Shown piece after piece: positions 11,461 through 20,237 of a stretch of DNA of 36,741 bases. The stretch comes from Bacteroidota bacterium. Lineage in GTDB: Bacteria; Bacteroidota; Bacteroidia; Bacteroidales; Prolixibacteraceae. The position numbers and the translations under genes are program-made. Each line of letters opens with the position of its first letter. The first letter of the stretch is position 1. Where the stretch lies: assembly GCA_029265715.1 (NCBI GenBank), contig JAJUGZ010000034.1, forward strand, positions 1 to 36,741, read 5' to 3'. The notes under the pieces were generated by a model that ran no database searches, was not told the origin of the DNA, and was given only the letters and a program-made list of their open reading frames with translations.

Positions 11461-11532
11461 GGCCACACCGATAAAGGCGTCCAGGTGATTTCCCGAGTGG
11501 CACACTCTCCGGTTCGAGTCCGGGGCGGGAAC
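11461..11532 (+). ncRNA. tRNA-like T-arm plus short acceptor helix upstream of the transposase
   Basis: TCCGG-TTCGAGT-CCGGG (11508-11524) is a perfect tRNA T arm with the canonical TTCGA loop. Six bases TTCCCG at 11490-11495 pair with CGGGAA at 11526-11531, giving a mini acceptor helix enclosing only a 12-nt linker and the T arm. Further upstream GCCAC (11462-11466) can pair with GTGGC (11497-11501). There is no D arm or anticodon arm of normal spacing, so it is not a standard tRNA. It fills the 91-bp gap before the transposase ATG. Confidence 0.4.
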
Positions 11533-11545
11533 AAACAAACGACTA

Positions 11546-13585
11546 ATGGAATACTACAACAATACACTCTGCATAGAGGCCGCATGGCTGATTGAGGAAG
11601 GGATTTTTTCAAAAGACAATTACGACCAACTAAGGTTTAGAAATAAAATCAACGTAGTTCGCAGGGCATGCCTGAATACACCTGCGCTGGTTGCTTACGA
11701 TAGTATTCCGGAGCGGTTTAAAATGCAGATTGTGGCAAAAATTGGCGACCCGCGCAAAGCGGCAAGCCAAAGCGAGTTGAAGGCCCGCATAGTGCCCGAC
11801 CCAAAAGCGTTATGTTGGTACCGCGACGAGTTTACCCTCGAAAACGGCGAACCCCTGCCCGAAGACAAGCAACTGGAGTACCGTACCAATGCCGAGATAC
11901 TGAATGCCATACACACCATAGTTAGCGAGCGCAAGCCGCAGGCCAAAAAGCTGAACGGCAATACCAAAAACCTGTGGCCAAACTTAGGCAAAGCGGTTGG
12001 CGAGCTCGATAAAACGATGTTTAAACACTCGCTGCCGGTTAATTACCGCCGCCTACAGGAAAAATACCGCGCCTACTTGCGCGATGGTTACCAGAGCCTG
12101 GTACATGGTGGTTTCTGCAACAAAAACTCGGAGAAAATAAACGACATGGCCAAGTCGTGGATATTGGCGCGGTGGATGGCCATGCACGACCGCGCCACCT
12201 CGGTACAGCAGCTATGGTGCGAGTACAACGCCTTGGCCGGTAGCGATGGTTTCTGGCAAAAAACAAAGCCACTGAAAAGCCCCGATGCCATTTACAATTT
12301 TTTGCACCAGCCCGAGATACAACCAATCTGGTACGGCCACCGGCATGGTGAGCTTAAGTTTAAAGAGAAGTTTATTTACCACCACAAAACCGCGCTTCCA
12401 ACCATGCGCGACTCGCTTTGGTACAGCGACGGTACAAAACTGAACTATTACTACAAAGATTTTGATGCCAATGGCCGCATGGTGGTAAAAACAACCAGTG
12501 TTTACGAGGTGATGGACGTTTACAGCGAGTGTTTGCTTGGCTACCACATATCGGATAACGAAGACTACGAGGCACAATACAATGCTTACCGCATGGCACT
12601 TGAGTTTAGCCAGCACAAGCCTTACCAGATCAGTTACGACAACCAGGGAGGGCACAAAAAACTGAAAAACGGTGACTTTTTTACGCGCCTGGCACACCTT
12701 GCCATTGCCACAAAGCCCTACAACGGTAAATCGAAAACAATAGAGAACGCTTTTAAACGCTTCCAGGAAGGTTTCCTTAAAAAAGATTGGTTTTTTACCG
12801 GGCAAAACATACAGGCCAAACAGGAAGAAAGCAAGGCAAACCTCGAATTTATCAATGCAAACAAGCACGAACTGCCAACGCTGGAAGAAATAAAGGCCAA
12901 ATACAAACAACGCCGCGACGAGTGGATGGCGGCAGAGCACCCCAAAACAGGCGAGAAAAGGATTGAGATGTACCGGAAAAGCCAAAACCCAAAGGCTGTG
13001 AAGTTGGAGTTGATGGATATGGTAGACCTGTTTTGGGTGCTTCGCGAAAAGCCTGTCAAGTGCGGTGCATGGGGCATTTCCTTCGAAGAAAAGAAAGTAC
13101 GCTACGATTACATGGTAAACCTGCCCGACGGAACGCCCGACATGGACTGGATAGTGCGCAATGTTAACCGCAAATTCCGAATCAAGTTCGACCCGCAGGA
13201 CTTCTCTATGATCTACCTGTACGAAGACACCCCGCAAGGCTTACGCTTTATTACTGCAGCTGAGCAAAAAGTTGAAGTACACCGTGGAAAACAGGAGCAG
13301 GAACAGTGGGAAGCTGCGTGGCTGAAGAAAGTGGAGATACACAGCAATGAAACCCGCGAGGCTTGGCATGAGGCAGGCATGGACATTATGGCCGCACACA
13401 ACCAACTGCCAGAACAGCACGGCCTTGTAACCCCGGCACTGAAAGGGATTAATAAGTCTAAAAATAAAAAAGCAAAACAGGCAATGGACAATTTCGGGAA
13501 AATACAGAAGGCAATGAGCAATGCAGTGGCTGCCGGAGTGGACGATGAAGACTTTAGCGAGAAAGATTTATTCAGATCATATTAA
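11546..13585 (+). CDS. Mu-type DDE transposase (MuA-like, rve integrase core)
   Basis: This 679-residue enzyme should cut the phage ends and join them to target DNA for integration and replicative transposition. The catalytic core carries D295 (WYSDGTKLN), D365 (SYDNQGGHKK) and E400 (SKTIENAFKRFQ), the spacing expected of retroviral-type DDE recombinases. The N-terminal 250 residues are helical and basic and probably bind the phage ends. After the core come a Mu-type beta-barrel-like domain and a lysine-rich tail that may contact the MuB partner. It is the key gene identifying the element as a transposable phage. Confidence 0.93.
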   Translation: MEYYNNTLCIEAAWLIEEGIFSKDNYDQLRFRNKINVVRRACLNTPALVAYDSIPERFKMQIVAKIGDPRKAASQSELKARIVPDPKALCWYRDEFTLENGEPLPEDKQLEYRTNAEILNAIHTIVSERKPQAKKLNGNTKNLWPNLGKAVGELDKTMFKHSLPVNYRRLQEKYRAYLRDGYQSLVHGGFCNKNSEKINDMAKSWILARWMAMHDRATSVQQLWCEYNALAGSDGFWQKTKPLKSPDAIYNFLHQPEIQPIWYGHRHGELKFKEKFIYHHKTALPTMRDSLWYSDGTKLNYYYKDFDANGRMVVKTTSVYEVMDVYSECLLGYHISDNEDYEAQYNAYRMALEFSQHKPYQISYDNQGGHKKLKNGDFFTRLAHLAIATKPYNGKSKTIENAFKRFQEGFLKKDWFFTGQNIQAKQEESKANLEFINANKHELPTLEEIKAKYKQRRDEWMAAEHPKTGEKRIEMYRKSQNPKAVKLELMDMVDLFWVLREKPVKCGAWGISFEEKKVRYDYMVNLPDGTPDMDWIVRNVNRKFRIKFDPQDFSMIYLYEDTPQGLRFITAAEQKVEVHRGKQEQEQWEAAWLKKVEIHSNETREAWHEAGMDIMAAHNQLPEQHGLVTPALKGINKSKNKKAKQAMDNFGKIQKAMSNAVAAGVDDEDFSEKDLFRSY

Positions 13586-13626: not shown

Positions 13627-14481
13627 ATGAAAAATTTAGACAAACAACAAATTGCTGAAAAACTGGCTGAGTATTGCGCCAGGTACGAAAGCCAAAACAA
13701 GGCAGCAAACAGCCTAAAAGGAGTAAGCTCGGCAACCATCAGCCAGATGCTTAACGGCAATTGGGAGCTGATTAAAGATGAAATGTGGAAAAACGTAGCC
13801 TCGCAGATTGGTTATACAGCCAACCAATGGCAGACTGTTGAAATCCGCGATTTTAAAATACTCAATACCCTACTTGCAGATGCCAGGGACAACAGCAACG
13901 TGTTTGCAGTGATCGGCGATGCCGGAACCGGTAAAAGCGTAGCCTTGCGCAGCTTTGCCGAAAGCAACAAACGCACCTACCTGTTGAGCTGTAATGAATA
14001 CTGGAACCGGAAGATGTTCCTGCAGGAGCTGTTAACATCGATGGGGCGCGACTATTCTGGCTTTACCGTTGGCGAAATGATGTATGAGGCCGTGAGCAAT
14101 TTGAAAAAGCAGGTTGACCCGATCATCATTATGGACGAGGCCGACAAACTGAGCGACCAGGTGCTTTATTTCTTCATCACCATTTACAACCAGCTCGAAG
14201 ACCATTGCGGCATCGTTTTGATTGCCACTTCGCACCTCGAAAAACGGATCAAACGTGGTATCAAACTCAATAAAAAAGGATATACCGAGATTTTCTCGCG
14301 CATGGGCAGGAAGTTCATTGAATTGAAAGGATTGGGGTTTACCGATGTGAAGGCAATATGCAATGCAAACGGAGTTGTCAATGCCTCGGCAATTAAAGAT
14401 ATATGGGAAGACTGCGAGGGCGACCTGCGCCGCGTGAAGCGTAAGATTCACGCCTGGAAACAATTGCAGGCGGCTGAATAG
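13627..14481 (+). CDS. MuB-like AAA ATPase, transposition target protein
   Basis: This 284-residue ATPase has an N-terminal helix-turn-helix (about 20-45, NSLKGVSSATISQMLNG), then a P-loop domain with Walker A GDAGTGKS (97-104) and Walker B PIIIMDEAD (165-173), and a winged-helix-like C terminus with basic residues (DLRRVKRKIHAWK). This is the architecture of Mu gpB, which binds target DNA cooperatively, stimulates the transposase and gives target immunity. It directly follows the transposase gene, as in Mu. The next gene starts one base after its stop. Confidence 0.9.
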   Translation: MKNLDKQQIAEKLAEYCARYESQNKAANSLKGVSSATISQMLNGNWELIKDEMWKNVASQIGYTANQWQTVEIRDFKILNTLLADARDNSNVFAVIGDAGTGKSVALRSFAESNKRTYLLSCNEYWNRKMFLQELLTSMGRDYSGFTVGEMMYEAVSNLKKQVDPIIIMDEADKLSDQVLYFFITIYNQLEDHCGIVLIATSHLEKRIKRGIKLNKKGYTEIFSRMGRKFIELKGLGFTDVKAICNANGVVNASAIKDIWEDCEGDLRRVKRKIHAWKQLQAAE

Positions 14482-16043: not shown

Positions 16044-16700
16044 ATGGAAAAGATAGAATTCTCACAACTCACAGAAGATCAGAAACGGCAGCTTCGCCAA
16101 CAGATGGCAGCCGAAGACAAAGCACGTAATGAAGCAAATAAAAAGCTGCGTGATGACTACGAACAGTTGAAAGACTACGAGGTTAAAAAATCGTTTGGCC
16201 ACTTGCAGCGCGTATCATCTGCACTTGCAGAAGAGAAGGTGAACGTGTTCAATCAGTTCGGGGCACTGCTGGCTATGAAGAAAGAACTATACAACCTTTC
16301 GGAGGAGCAGATGGATCTGCAGCAGTCGCACACCTTCACCAGCAACGACGGAAAGCAATCTATCATTATCGGTTCGAACGTGATAGACCGCTGGAGCGAC
16401 GATGTTCAGGTTGGCATTGACCGCGTAACTGCATGGATAAATGCCCGCATAACCGATAAGGATAGCCGCGAAATAATCACAGCCCTGCTTAAGCCTGACT
16501 CGAAAGGTGTACTAAAAGCAAACCGTGTTCTTGAGCTTAGCAAAAAGGCCGCCGAAATTGGCGATACCGACCTGATGGATGCAGTGAACTTCATCCGCGA
16601 CCAGTACCGGCCTGAAAAGACATCAACCTTCGTGAAAGCGAAGTTTATGGATGAAAACGATCAATGGCAATGGCTCGCCTTGAGCATGAGCGCCGTTTAA
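16044..16700 (+). CDS. DUF3164-family phage early protein
   Basis: A 218-residue protein matching the layout of DUF3164, a family common in transposable phages near the transposase genes. A charged coiled-coil N terminus (about 1-75) is followed by a compact domain with the segment TALLKPDSKGVLKANRVLELSKKA (paraphrased: last-third residues about 150-173) and a C-terminal strand pair. The molecular function of the family is unknown. The last codon precedes a 543-bp noncoding RNA-rich gap. Confidence 0.7.
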   Translation: MEKIEFSQLTEDQKRQLRQQMAAEDKARNEANKKLRDDYEQLKDYEVKKSFGHLQRVSSALAEEKVNVFNQFGALLAMKKELYNLSEEQMDLQQSHTFTSNDGKQSIIIGSNVIDRWSDDVQVGIDRVTAWINARITDKDSREIITALLKPDSKGVLKANRVLELSKKAAEIGDTDLMDAVNFIRDQYRPEKTSTFVKAKFMDENDQWQWLALSMSAV

Positions 16701-16821
16701 CAATACACGGCCTTCTTGCCGGGGCTTCCAATAACCGGCATGCGTTCTAACCAGTAAATGATTTTCCCAAATCATTCATTTCAAAACCCCGGCCTTCGTG
16801 ATTGATTGAGCCGGGGCACAC
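16701..16821 (+). ncRNA. Hairpin-rich noncoding segment
   Basis: Several stable hairpins occur in the 5' part of a 543-bp gap: AATGATTT/AAATCATT with a TCCC loop (16757-16776), CCCCGGC/GCCGGGG (16787-16793 with 16810-16816), and GCCGG/CCGGC near 16717-16738. No ORF of merit is present. It leads directly into the tRNA-like RNA at 16822. Confidence 0.45.
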
Positions 16822-16978
16822 GGACAGGTGGCGGAACTGGCAAACGCTTAATGACACGTACCGCAGCCGAAATGTAACAGCGCTCAATGATTAGGCAATG
16901 CGAATAAGAAGCCAGATACCTCAGTGTACGTAGGTAAAGCTTAAAGCTGGCATGCAGGTTCGAACCCTGCCCTGTCCA
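16822..16978 (+). tRNA. tRNA-like RNA with enlarged central region (157 nt)
   Basis: Acceptor strands GGACAGG (16822-16828) and CCTGTCC (16971-16977) form seven perfect pairs, followed by A as discriminator. A D arm GCG-GAACTGGCAAA-CGC (16831-16847), like that of tRNA-Leu, follows TG at positions 8-9. The T arm GCAGG-TTCGAAC-CCTGC (16954-16970) abuts the acceptor exactly as in real tRNAs. Between D and T arms lie 106 nt where a class II tRNA has about 35. Two further stems can be drawn there: CGCAGCC with GGC-AA-TGCG (16862-16868 / 16894-16902) and GCCAG/CTGGC (16911-16915 / 16947-16951) enclosing TACCT/AGGTA. No convincing 7-base anticodon loop was found, so the isotype is unknown. CCA is not encoded. 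Confidence 0.5.
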
Positions 16979-16995
16979 CGTGGCGATTTTAGTTA

Positions 16996-17164
16996 ACCCG
17001 GACGCTTTCGGGTTTGAAGGGAATGGAGGCAATGCTTACATGGGTGCACCACAGGGTTTCAGATTTTCCCCGAACATACGCCCAATCCATCCTCAAAGCT
17101 ATGGTGCTGAGATTGCACCACCCGGGCGGGTTGCTTAAATCAGGTTCGACCCCTGATCCGGGAC
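16996..17164 (+). ncRNA. Second structured RNA segment ending in a tRNA-like T arm
   Basis: TCAGG-TTCGACC-CCTGA (17140-17156) is a perfect T arm followed by TCCGGGA. CCCGGG at 17121-17126 can pair with TCCGGG (17157-17162) to give a mini acceptor helix with a 13-nt linker; CCCGGA at 16997-17002 is a competing partner that would make a 160-nt tRNA-like unit, similar in size to the one at 16822. Other hairpins inside are AACCCG/CGGGTT (16995-17014) and TGGTGC/GCACCA with a seven-base loop (17102-17120). It is clearly tRNA-derived or tRNA-mimicking at its 3' end; a standard tRNA cannot be drawn. Confidence 0.4.
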
Positions 17165-17243
17165 AAAAAAGCGAGAGATCATAAACTATTAACCTCAATC
17201 CCTTCAAGCACTTCGAGTGCATGAAGGTTAACAAATAATCCAA

Positions 17244-17609
17244 ATGATAATAGCAATCGACTTTGACGGAACAATATCGCGGGGCAAGTACCCGGCCATT
17301 GACGGCCTGCAACCTTATGCAGCCGAAACAGTTAACGCACTGTACGATGCAGGGCATTACATCATTATAAACACATGTCGAAGCGGAGAACAGTTATTGG
17401 AGGCCATTAACTGGATGCTCGGACAGGGTATCCGGTTTCACCGCGTTAACGACAACCATCCTGATCAGACGGCCAGGTATAAAAACAACAGCCGCAAAAT
17501 ATACGCGCATGTGTACGTTGATGACAAGAACCTGGGCGGTTTTCCCGGTTGGCTCCGCGCCGGAGAAATGATTGCCGAACTGCAAAAAGAATGGGAGGAA
17601 CGGGAATGA
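17244..17609 (+). CDS. HAD-like hydrolase (C1-capless type)
   Basis: A 121-residue protein with haloacid-dehalogenase signatures: nucleophile motif IDFDGT (D6, D8), motif II threonine in NTCRSGE (T44), a lysine/arginine-rich middle, and the acidic motif YVDDKN (D93/D94). It is much shorter than typical HAD enzymes because it has no cap domain, like the small HAD proteins known in Bacteroidota. It probably hydrolyses a phosphate ester, perhaps a nucleotide or a nucleic-acid end, during phage growth; the substrate is unknown. It overlaps the next gene by four bases (ATGA). Confidence 0.8.
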   Translation: MIIAIDFDGTISRGKYPAIDGLQPYAAETVNALYDAGHYIIINTCRSGEQLLEAINWMLGQGIRFHRVNDNHPDQTARYKNNSRKIYAHVYVDDKNLGGFPGWLRAGEMIAELQKEWEERE

Positions 17610-19540: not shown

Positions 19541-19556
19541 CACAATTCTTAAAGTT

Positions 19557-20237
19557 ATGACTGACACCAAGAATGAAATTTTGACACCGGAGGTATTTCA
19601 ATTCTCCTCCACCAAACAAGAGGTAAGAAGCCTCGTAGTTGAAAATGAACCGTGGCTGGTTGCCAAAGATGTTTGCGATATTTTGGGGCTTACAAACCAC
19701 AAGGTCGCCGTAAAGAGCTTAGATGAAGACGAGGTAAGAAAAACTTACCTCCTTTCAAATGGTGGTAATCAATTAACCACAATTATCAACGAAAGTGGGC
19801 TTTATACTTTGATTATGCGCAGCAACAAGCCCGAGGCCAAAACCTTCCGTAAATGGGTAACATCGGAGGTGTTACCAGCCATACGCAAACGCGGCTACTA
19901 TGGCACCCAAAAGAAAAGCAACGATTTTATCGATTGCCGCGATGTTCCGTTCCGCTTTAAAGAGTTTAACGGCATCAACATCCGCTACATCGAATTGGAC
20001 AGCGAACTGTGGTTTTCGCTTAACGACATCCACACCGCCATTGGCAGCCGCACCGAAAGTACCCAGGCCGCCCGTAAACTGAACCAGAAACAAACATTGG
20101 CCAAAAAAGTATGGTTGTTTGGCAACACCCACCCGGCTTGGTTTACCAATAACCTGGGCTTGCAGTTGCTCGTTAGTGGCAGCCGCACATTAAACCAAAC
20201 CCGCCAGTTAGAACTAAACTTTGGAGGGCAGGCATAA
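19557..20237 (+). CDS. BRO-family phage antirepressor
   Basis: A 226-residue protein from the ATG at 19557; an upstream in-frame ATG at 19455 lies inside the structured leader and is rejected as the start. Residues 10-110 form a BRO-N domain with the landmarks WLVAKDVCDILGL, NESGLYTLIMRS and FRKWVTSEVLPAIRK. The remaining 110 residues look like a second BRO-type or antirepressor DNA-binding module (LNDIHTAIGSRTESTQAARKL). BRO-N proteins bind DNA and often oppose phage repressors, so a switch to lytic growth is plausible. It overlaps the next gene by one base. Confidence 0.88.
   Translation: MTDTKNEILTPEVFQFSSTKQEVRSLVVENEPWLVAKDVCDILGLTNHKVAVKSLDEDEVRKTYLLSNGGNQLTTIINESGLYTLIMRSNKPEAKTFRKWVTSEVLPAIRKRGYYGTQKKSNDFIDCRDVPFRFKEFNGINIRYIELDSELWFSLNDIHTAIGSRTESTQAARKLNQKQTLAKKVWLFGNTHPAWFTNNLGLQLLVSGSRTLNQTRQLELNFGGQA

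Follow-up and report, generated by a model that had tools for sequence, protein, structure and literature searches.

The DNA analysed here, called the window throughout, comprises 36,741 nucleotides (nt), positions 1 to 36,741 of contig JAJUGZ010000034.1 (assembly GCA_029265715.1), from a bacterium of the family Prolixibacteraceae (Bacteroidota). Our subject is an RNA resembling a transfer RNA (tRNA), about 156-157 nt long, which is encoded on the forward strand at 16822-16978. It lies between a DUF3164 gene (16044-16700, forward strand; Pfam PF11363, E 6.6e-8) and the next gene, which is on the same strand and with which it is probably co-transcribed. Farther upstream are an AAA ATPase gene (13627-14481) and a large early gene on the forward strand (11546-13585), whose product matched no Pfam family and which we presume, from its position and from the AAA gene behind it, to encode a Mu-type transposase. 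These surroundings suggest the early region of a Mu-type prophage. No viral relatives of the DUF3164 protein were found in IMG/VR.

Anatomy of the tRNA-like RNA

The 5′ acceptor strand GGACAGG (16822-16828) pairs at seven of seven positions with CCTGTCC (16971-16977), which is followed by a discriminator A at 16978. The D arm, TGGCGGAACTGGCAAACGC (16829-16847), differs at three positions from a Leu-type reference 19-mer, for which the second-best site in the window has five mismatches, and the T arm, GCAGG-TTCGAAC-CCTGC (16954-16970), pairs at 5/5 stem positions. Between them, where a tRNA has its anticodon and variable arms, lie 106 nt (16848-16953). The preliminary description, drawn from the letters of the DNA, had reported perfect acceptor, D and T arms, a middle of 106 nt and about 70 nt too many, and all of this holds. 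When a 7/7 acceptor, a 5/5 T stem and a D stem whose loop contains GG were required and the Leu-type D arm was not, 16822-16978 was the sole site on either strand of the window, and a match occurred in 2 of 150 locally dinucleotide-shuffled windows (mean 0.013 per window). A G+C-rich leader hairpin, CCCCGGC-loop-GCCGGGG (16787-16816, forward strand), ends 5 nt 5′ of the element; together with the five bases that follow, it folds at -15.9 kcal/mol.

With tRNA-Leu the window RNA shares the acceptor, D and T arms and the A after the acceptor, and it differs in having the 106-nt middle and no anticodon arm. ARAGORN called no tRNA in the whole window, where nothing scored in Rfam at the gathering cut-off either; relaxing the threshold to E 10 over 16650-17260 gave five matches (E 1.8-7.1), and transfer-messenger RNA (tmRNA) was not among them. 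In tmRNA, tRNA-like ends are combined with a pseudoknotted domain that replaces the anticodon arm. The window RNA resembles it in this layout but has a full D arm and no Rfam tmRNA match, and its shorter relatives would putatively have little room for a tag frame. The bacterial Y RNA YrlA is likewise a tRNA mimic that does not decode, from which the window RNA differs in its open acceptor end.

Related elements in viruses and their scarcity in hosts

Scanning IMG/VR for a Leu-type D arm and a T arm separated by a gap of 50-80 nt returned at least 120 viral contigs, and at least 120 were also returned with a gap of 81-111. The family counts given here (242, 163, 311, 266 and 219) rest on the matches listed and are lower bounds. 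From these matches 242 elements were extracted, of which 168 had a 7/7 acceptor and 163 (149 distinct) a 5/5 T stem as well; the remainder includes chance alignments and ordinary tRNA-Leu genes with a second tRNA behind them. The pairing of acceptor and T arm is thus conserved in relatives, a result on which the preliminary description had made its own case depend. The strict form with the acceptor AGTCAGG occurs in 107 viral contigs. Widening the D-arm pattern gave at least 311 viral or phage elements with perfect arms, 45 of them with an ordinary anticodon stem and 266 without, the latter representing at least 219 distinct middles, mostly of 45-80 nt. The base after the acceptor is A in 128/163 listed viral elements. 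The second base is C in 141 of the same 163, the usual tail being ACA or ACT, and CCA is seldom encoded (ACC in 8).

A leader hairpin lies 2-8 nt upstream, most often at 4-5 nt, in 82/219 listed members; shuffles and a set of 611 control windows both give 24%. In 14 members the leader has a GGAAAGAC-type loop on varied stems, ahead of differing acceptors. By eye, hairpins like that of the window precede the elements of BS-TP2 and of the loci that we number L003, L004 and L014, and leader hairpins are also seen upstream of those in L015, L017, L021, L032, L036, L047, L059 and L185. No common protein partner was found. Among the neighbours of the BS-TP2-like copies, conservation is highest for an open reading frame of about 250 amino acids directly upstream, present in 6 loci and annotated as DUF2303 in BS-TP2. 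The element of BS-TP2, a phage that infects Bacteroides salyersiae, measures 107 nt (19550-19656 of PQ571275) and is unannotated in that record.

In host genomes the gap 50-80 pattern matched 106 stretches among 84,980 species, many of them explained by ordinary tRNAs, by duplication or by runs of N; the clear cases belong to the Bacteroidota, for example Bacteroides, Prevotella, Riemerella and Sphingobacterium. A pattern with a gap of 65-95, which cannot match the window copy with its longer gap, was found in 0/199 genomes of relatives. Genome contigs of Planctomycetota, Acidobacteria, Methylopila and Chlorobaculum (L273, L275, L284, L352, L360 and L307) carry tRNA-Leu-like genes in which the anticodon region consists of a long hairpin or contains a short insert; judging by the middle alone, these are not phage-like. 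The Rfam tRNA model accepts at least 8 elements in 20 loci and ARAGORN called no pattern element in 33 loci, so that the tools disagree on such elements.

Other D arms occur in the same setting. Class I D arms with a gap of 50-80 are found in at least 121 elements, 74 of them with perfect arms, and 2 of these 74 have an ordinary anticodon stem; some class I forms are situated in the tRNA clusters of jumbo phages. The class I element L520 matches 16 GenBank phage records, in which it is labelled tRNA-Lys, tRNA-OTHER, tRNA-Ser or hypothetical protein. Ser-type forms are scarce, the entire collection yielding 19 stretches, of which 14 have perfect arms. An identity restricted to leucine was dropped because class I forms are at least as frequent among the matches listed. 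By eye, many class I mimics (L454-L571) have a common hairpin followed by an ACAGCAA-like motif, with GGTC or GTC before the T arm. One viral contig with 16 ARAGORN tRNA calls contains a permuted tmRNA (L477, 4623-4908; Rfam RF04321, 56.8 bits vs 47).

The preliminary description had considered both an intron-containing tRNA and a decayed tRNA. Such origins would suit arms of the tRNA-Leu type, and some phages also have an ordinary tRNA-Leu (the 45 of 311 mentioned above). But nowhere in the middle of the window RNA is there a 5-bp partner for nt 27-31 (TAATG); the acceptor, D and T arms are all present, the anticodon stem-loop at 27-43 is absent. All of 66 ordinary tRNA-Leu used as a control have this partner, which is found in 31.5% of the 219 relatives and in 24.5% of shuffles. 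On this test the intron is rejected for this copy and the short-intron tRNA-Leu in general. Decay is contradicted by acceptor and T arms that stay intact around many unrelated middles, and by two-sided changes within the middles that keep pairing (see below). We consider either origin very improbable, and the proposal of a tRNA-derived RNA made by a phage, rather than an ordinary intron-bearing tRNA, is supported.

Two or three versions with unrelated middles occur together in 16 loci, 15 of which share one acceptor, AGTCAGG, between the versions (some of these loci are near duplicates). Phages L136, L363, L370, L379, L383 and L446 have two or three copies each, with identical arms and unrelated middles. 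Identical arms around unrelated middles point to an exchange of middles or to a strong constraint on the arms. The processed RNA, having no anticodon and being useless in translation, might act in trans as a decoy or inhibitor of a host factor that reads the acceptor or the elbow, such as leucyl-tRNA synthetase, the CCA-adding enzyme, EF-Tu or a defence toxin modifying the tRNA 3′ end. The leucyl-tRNA synthetase of E. coli is not known to read the anticodon. The preliminary description had likewise suggested that the RNA might sequester an aminoacyl-tRNA synthetase or serve as a decoy for tRNA-targeting defences. A decoy of this kind, the chief alternative to the explanation that we prefer below, is suggested by the loci with several versions, by the retained Leu-type D arm, by the prevalence of A after the acceptor, by the near absence from host genomes and by the class I versions in jumbo-phage tRNA clusters. 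Against it, the frequency of class I D arms means that no single synthetase fits, the mini forms described below are without most of the features that synthetases read, and a decoy has no need of placement at gene junctions. We regard it as possible, at a rather low probability.

The middle region and a predicted pseudoknot

In the window copy a pseudoknot is predicted on the forward strand from helix H1, ACGTAC/GTACGT (16856-16861/16926-16931), and helix X, GCCAG/CTGGC (16911-16915/16947-16951), which ends 2 nt before the T arm. The same topology recurs in relatives, in the order H1-5′, X-5′, H1-3′, X-3′ with X stopping 1-4 nt before the T arm, and thus forms an H-type pseudoknot; the shortest middle with it has 33 nt (L363). 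Across the 219 listed members, helices that stop 1-3 nt short of the T arm exceed those of shuffles in strength (mean -7.26 vs -4.79). The best pseudoknot in 169 middles of up to 80 nt averages -13.9 as compared with -9.8 in shuffles, with p<=0.05 in 27%, and it outscores the nested fold in 39% of them, compared with 28% in shuffles. An HDV-like (hepatitis delta virus-like) ribozyme topology, considered for BS-TP2 from its helix order, was rejected, as by eye the third helix is absent in other members.

Compensatory changes were counted in 35 homologous pairs, which remained from 39 picked by hand when 4 had no prediction. Two-sided changes in the predicted pseudoknot still paired in 17 of 19 cases, whereas control registers slid by 1-4 positions gave 4-9 two-sided changes, 1-5 of them paired. 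The clearest cases are L389/L117, L192/L252 and L445/L384; in L099/L394 separate predictions place X identically with differing letters. For the window element itself, no close copies were found among 140 genomes of the taxonomic family, and 23 phage records share merely short stretches with it, so its middle is not open to covariation testing. As a modelled structure, the pseudoknot has good support in the family as a whole, and for the window copy it is no more than plausible.

Structured middles that differ among the copies of one phage could also mean that the middle is the active part of a stable regulatory RNA, binding a protein or pairing with a target, with the tRNA ends serving as a handle for maturation and stability, much as in phage small RNAs carried by tRNA-like ends. 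Phage T4 makes an RNA that may be compared, the species 1 RNA (rnaC), a stable RNA of 139 nt that is encoded in a tRNA cluster and whose T arm, CCGGG-TTCGAAT-CCCGG, is perfect. It has acceptor-like ends (5/7 pairs by eye); the acceptor is imperfect and no Leu-type D arm is seen by eye, and the T arm is the one part that was compared with the window copy. Passages of papers from 2010 and 2022 call its function unknown (PMC3014915, PMC9697503), and a passage of another reports a mutation in T4 rnaD (PMC12685909). The complementarity of the window middle to the rest of the window is ordinary, with a longest match of 11 nt that 45/100 shuffles equal, and an antisense RNA against the phage's own genes was rejected on these grounds. 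The mini forms have no such middle at all, and we think a regulatory role as the main function unlikely.

Mini forms, gene junctions and possible cleavage

Two elements of 42 nt in the window, both on the forward strand, have much the same acceptor/T end with little else. The one at 11490-11531 consists of TTCCCG, an 11-nt loop (AGTGGCACACT), a 6-bp T stem with the loop TTCGAGT, and CGGGAA, which together give a 12-bp stack, and it stops 14 nt short of the presumed transposase gene, which starts with the ATG at 11546. The other, at 17121-17162, has CCCGG, a 13-nt loop with GGG, a 6-bp T stem with the loop TTCGACC, CCGGG and ACA, with an 11-bp stack. In general, this 40-42-nt form is a continuous acceptor/T stack of 11-12 bp whose 5′ side is broken by a loop of 10-13 nt with GG. 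Such a stack, with a loop of 9-14 nt, is present in 8/17 T arms near the DUF3164 or transposase genes of related prophages, even with L617 (one bulged base) scored as a miss, and in 38/1797 with shuffled flanks. GG is found in 8/8 tabulated loops, and the base pairs of the stack vary with pairing kept. A blind scan of 5.29 Mb of loci gave 32 matches, several within ordinary tRNAs, and 1.19 Mb of shuffled sequence gave no match; with the demand for GG relaxed, 21 of 34 distinct matches had it. The long forms in this group are those of the window (156 nt) and of L004 (146 nt, acceptor 6/7), and L003 has a form of 55 nt with no anticodon side. Forms with neither D arm nor anticodon arm speak against a function that depends on the anticodon side, and a decoy binding at the acceptor or elbow is compatible with them.

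In 26 loci with DUF3164, 11 T arms lie on the strand of that gene and 0 on the opposite strand, within 8 loci; 10 of the 11 are downstream of it, that of L014 being upstream. Around the presumed transposase, 26 loci have 6 T arms on the same strand and 1 on the opposite strand. Mini elements precede this gene in L630 and L617 too, at about 17 and 19 nt from the ATG by eye, with transposases 26% and 28% identical to that of the window, and in L615 a tRNA of ordinary appearance stands at about 24 nt (by eye) in front of the gene. Among 13 mini forms measured, the upstream stop codon abuts the element or lies within 4 nt in four (L005, the second copy of L006, L392 and L595), and a start codon follows within 30 nt in four (window 11490; L595, at 18 nt; L410, where the match is the end of a longer form; and L102). 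The remaining mini forms are not at gene ends, and overlapping reading frames make some gaps uncertain. Among 200 long forms, a start codon lies 10-40 nt downstream in 30% (random positions 14%, phage tRNAs 15%, antisense 1%) and a stop codon at -2 to 10 nt upstream in 26% (random 3%, phage tRNAs 12%, antisense 11%).

We propose with moderate confidence that these elements are phage-made mimics of the top half of a tRNA, which are cut by host RNase P and by enzymes acting at the 3′ end and which serve mainly as operon punctuation. The elements would keep the acceptor stem stacked on the T arm and the GG of the D loop forming the elbow, and the anticodon side would be swapped for a fold that varies between members. 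In many of them this would be an H-type pseudoknot, its second helix ending close to the T arm. Host RNase P may read stack and elbow as a precursor tRNA and cut at 16822, and RNase Z or 3′ exonucleases may cut near 16978, whereby the DUF3164 message of the early operon would be parted from the downstream gene and a tRNA-like piece set free. The mini forms, with little beyond the stack and the GG loop, would act alike at other junctions, for example before 11546, while the long versions would additionally release a stable RNA.

The analysis itself shows the anatomy, the family, the compensated two-sided changes and the mini forms with their places; that the RNA is cut, what purpose this serves and how stable the released piece would be, we infer. 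All forms have the acceptor/T stack with its T loop, and mostly the elbow GG, which is what RNase P measures. PMC4919913 describes RNase P as recognising any RNA that presents a T-stem/acceptor stack, the D loop being apparently dispensable, and a passage of PMC11143913 reports that it processes phage RNAs and operon mRNAs. The position between genes suggests punctuation comparable to that by plant mitochondrial t-elements. An activity of the released RNA itself is suggested by the conserved folds of the long middles, by copies that share their arms and differ in their middles, and by the copies situated in tRNA clusters. The primary work on t-elements is reportedly that of Forner et al. 2007. 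A passage of PMC8003010 describes them as intergenic tRNA-like structures that mark cleavage sites of tRNA processing. The window RNA and the mini forms at 11490 and 17121 are alike in lying between genes on the same strand, where co-transcription is probable; the differences are that they belong to a phage or prophage, come in two size classes, one of them pseudoknotted, and would be cut on the inference just given.

A number of observations weigh against this proposal. Punctuation alone needs neither a pseudoknot nor a Leu-type D arm. The pseudoknot of the window copy is not significant by itself (p 0.11, or 0.15 in another run), nor is that of L004, its neighbour in kind (p 0.42). The preliminary description had drawn two extra stems (16862-16902 and 16911-16951), which are indeed present in the nested minimum-energy fold of the whole window RNA; this fold does not exceed shuffles in stability (z -0.17), and of the two stems the second has an outer helix, GCCAG/CTGGC, of the kind supported by relatives, whereas the first has no such support. 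In the 169 middles the best nested helix pair is likewise above shuffles (-14.6 vs -11.3, with p<=0.05 in 21%), and calculated energies by themselves cannot choose between pseudoknot and nested fold. One-sided changes in the predicted helices pair in 25 of 57 cases, no better than in slid registers, and the pairs compared were hand-picked and share members. As for placement, 18/26 DUF3164 loci have no T arm at all, and L609 and L610, with the nearest transposases (64% and 63% identical), have none before that gene. No gene start lies within 200 nt downstream of 34% of the 200 long forms, and some stand in tandem in non-coding gaps (L363) or, as class I forms, among phage tRNAs; copies so placed suit a product acting in trans.

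On a broader and rather speculative view, the elements may be a graded set, from 40-nt acceptor/T minihelices with a GG loop to pseudoknotted mimics of 160 nt, of RNase P handles by which phages divide operons and release stable RNAs, a set overlooked or mislabelled as tRNAs and including the T4 species 1 RNA. Our literature search, in which subscription journals and preprints were mostly uncovered and from which we claim no absence from print, found no paper on such phage RNAs besides T4 rnaC and rnaD. If the cleavage is real, phages would have evolved a tRNA punctuation of the mitochondrial type, with elements pared down to the features that RNase P measures, and viral RNAs of a widespread class would acquire a function. 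In addition, with elements such as L520 labelled as they are, the numbers of tRNAs given for large phages may have to be corrected, and the family supplies a concrete test for the T4 species 1 RNA.
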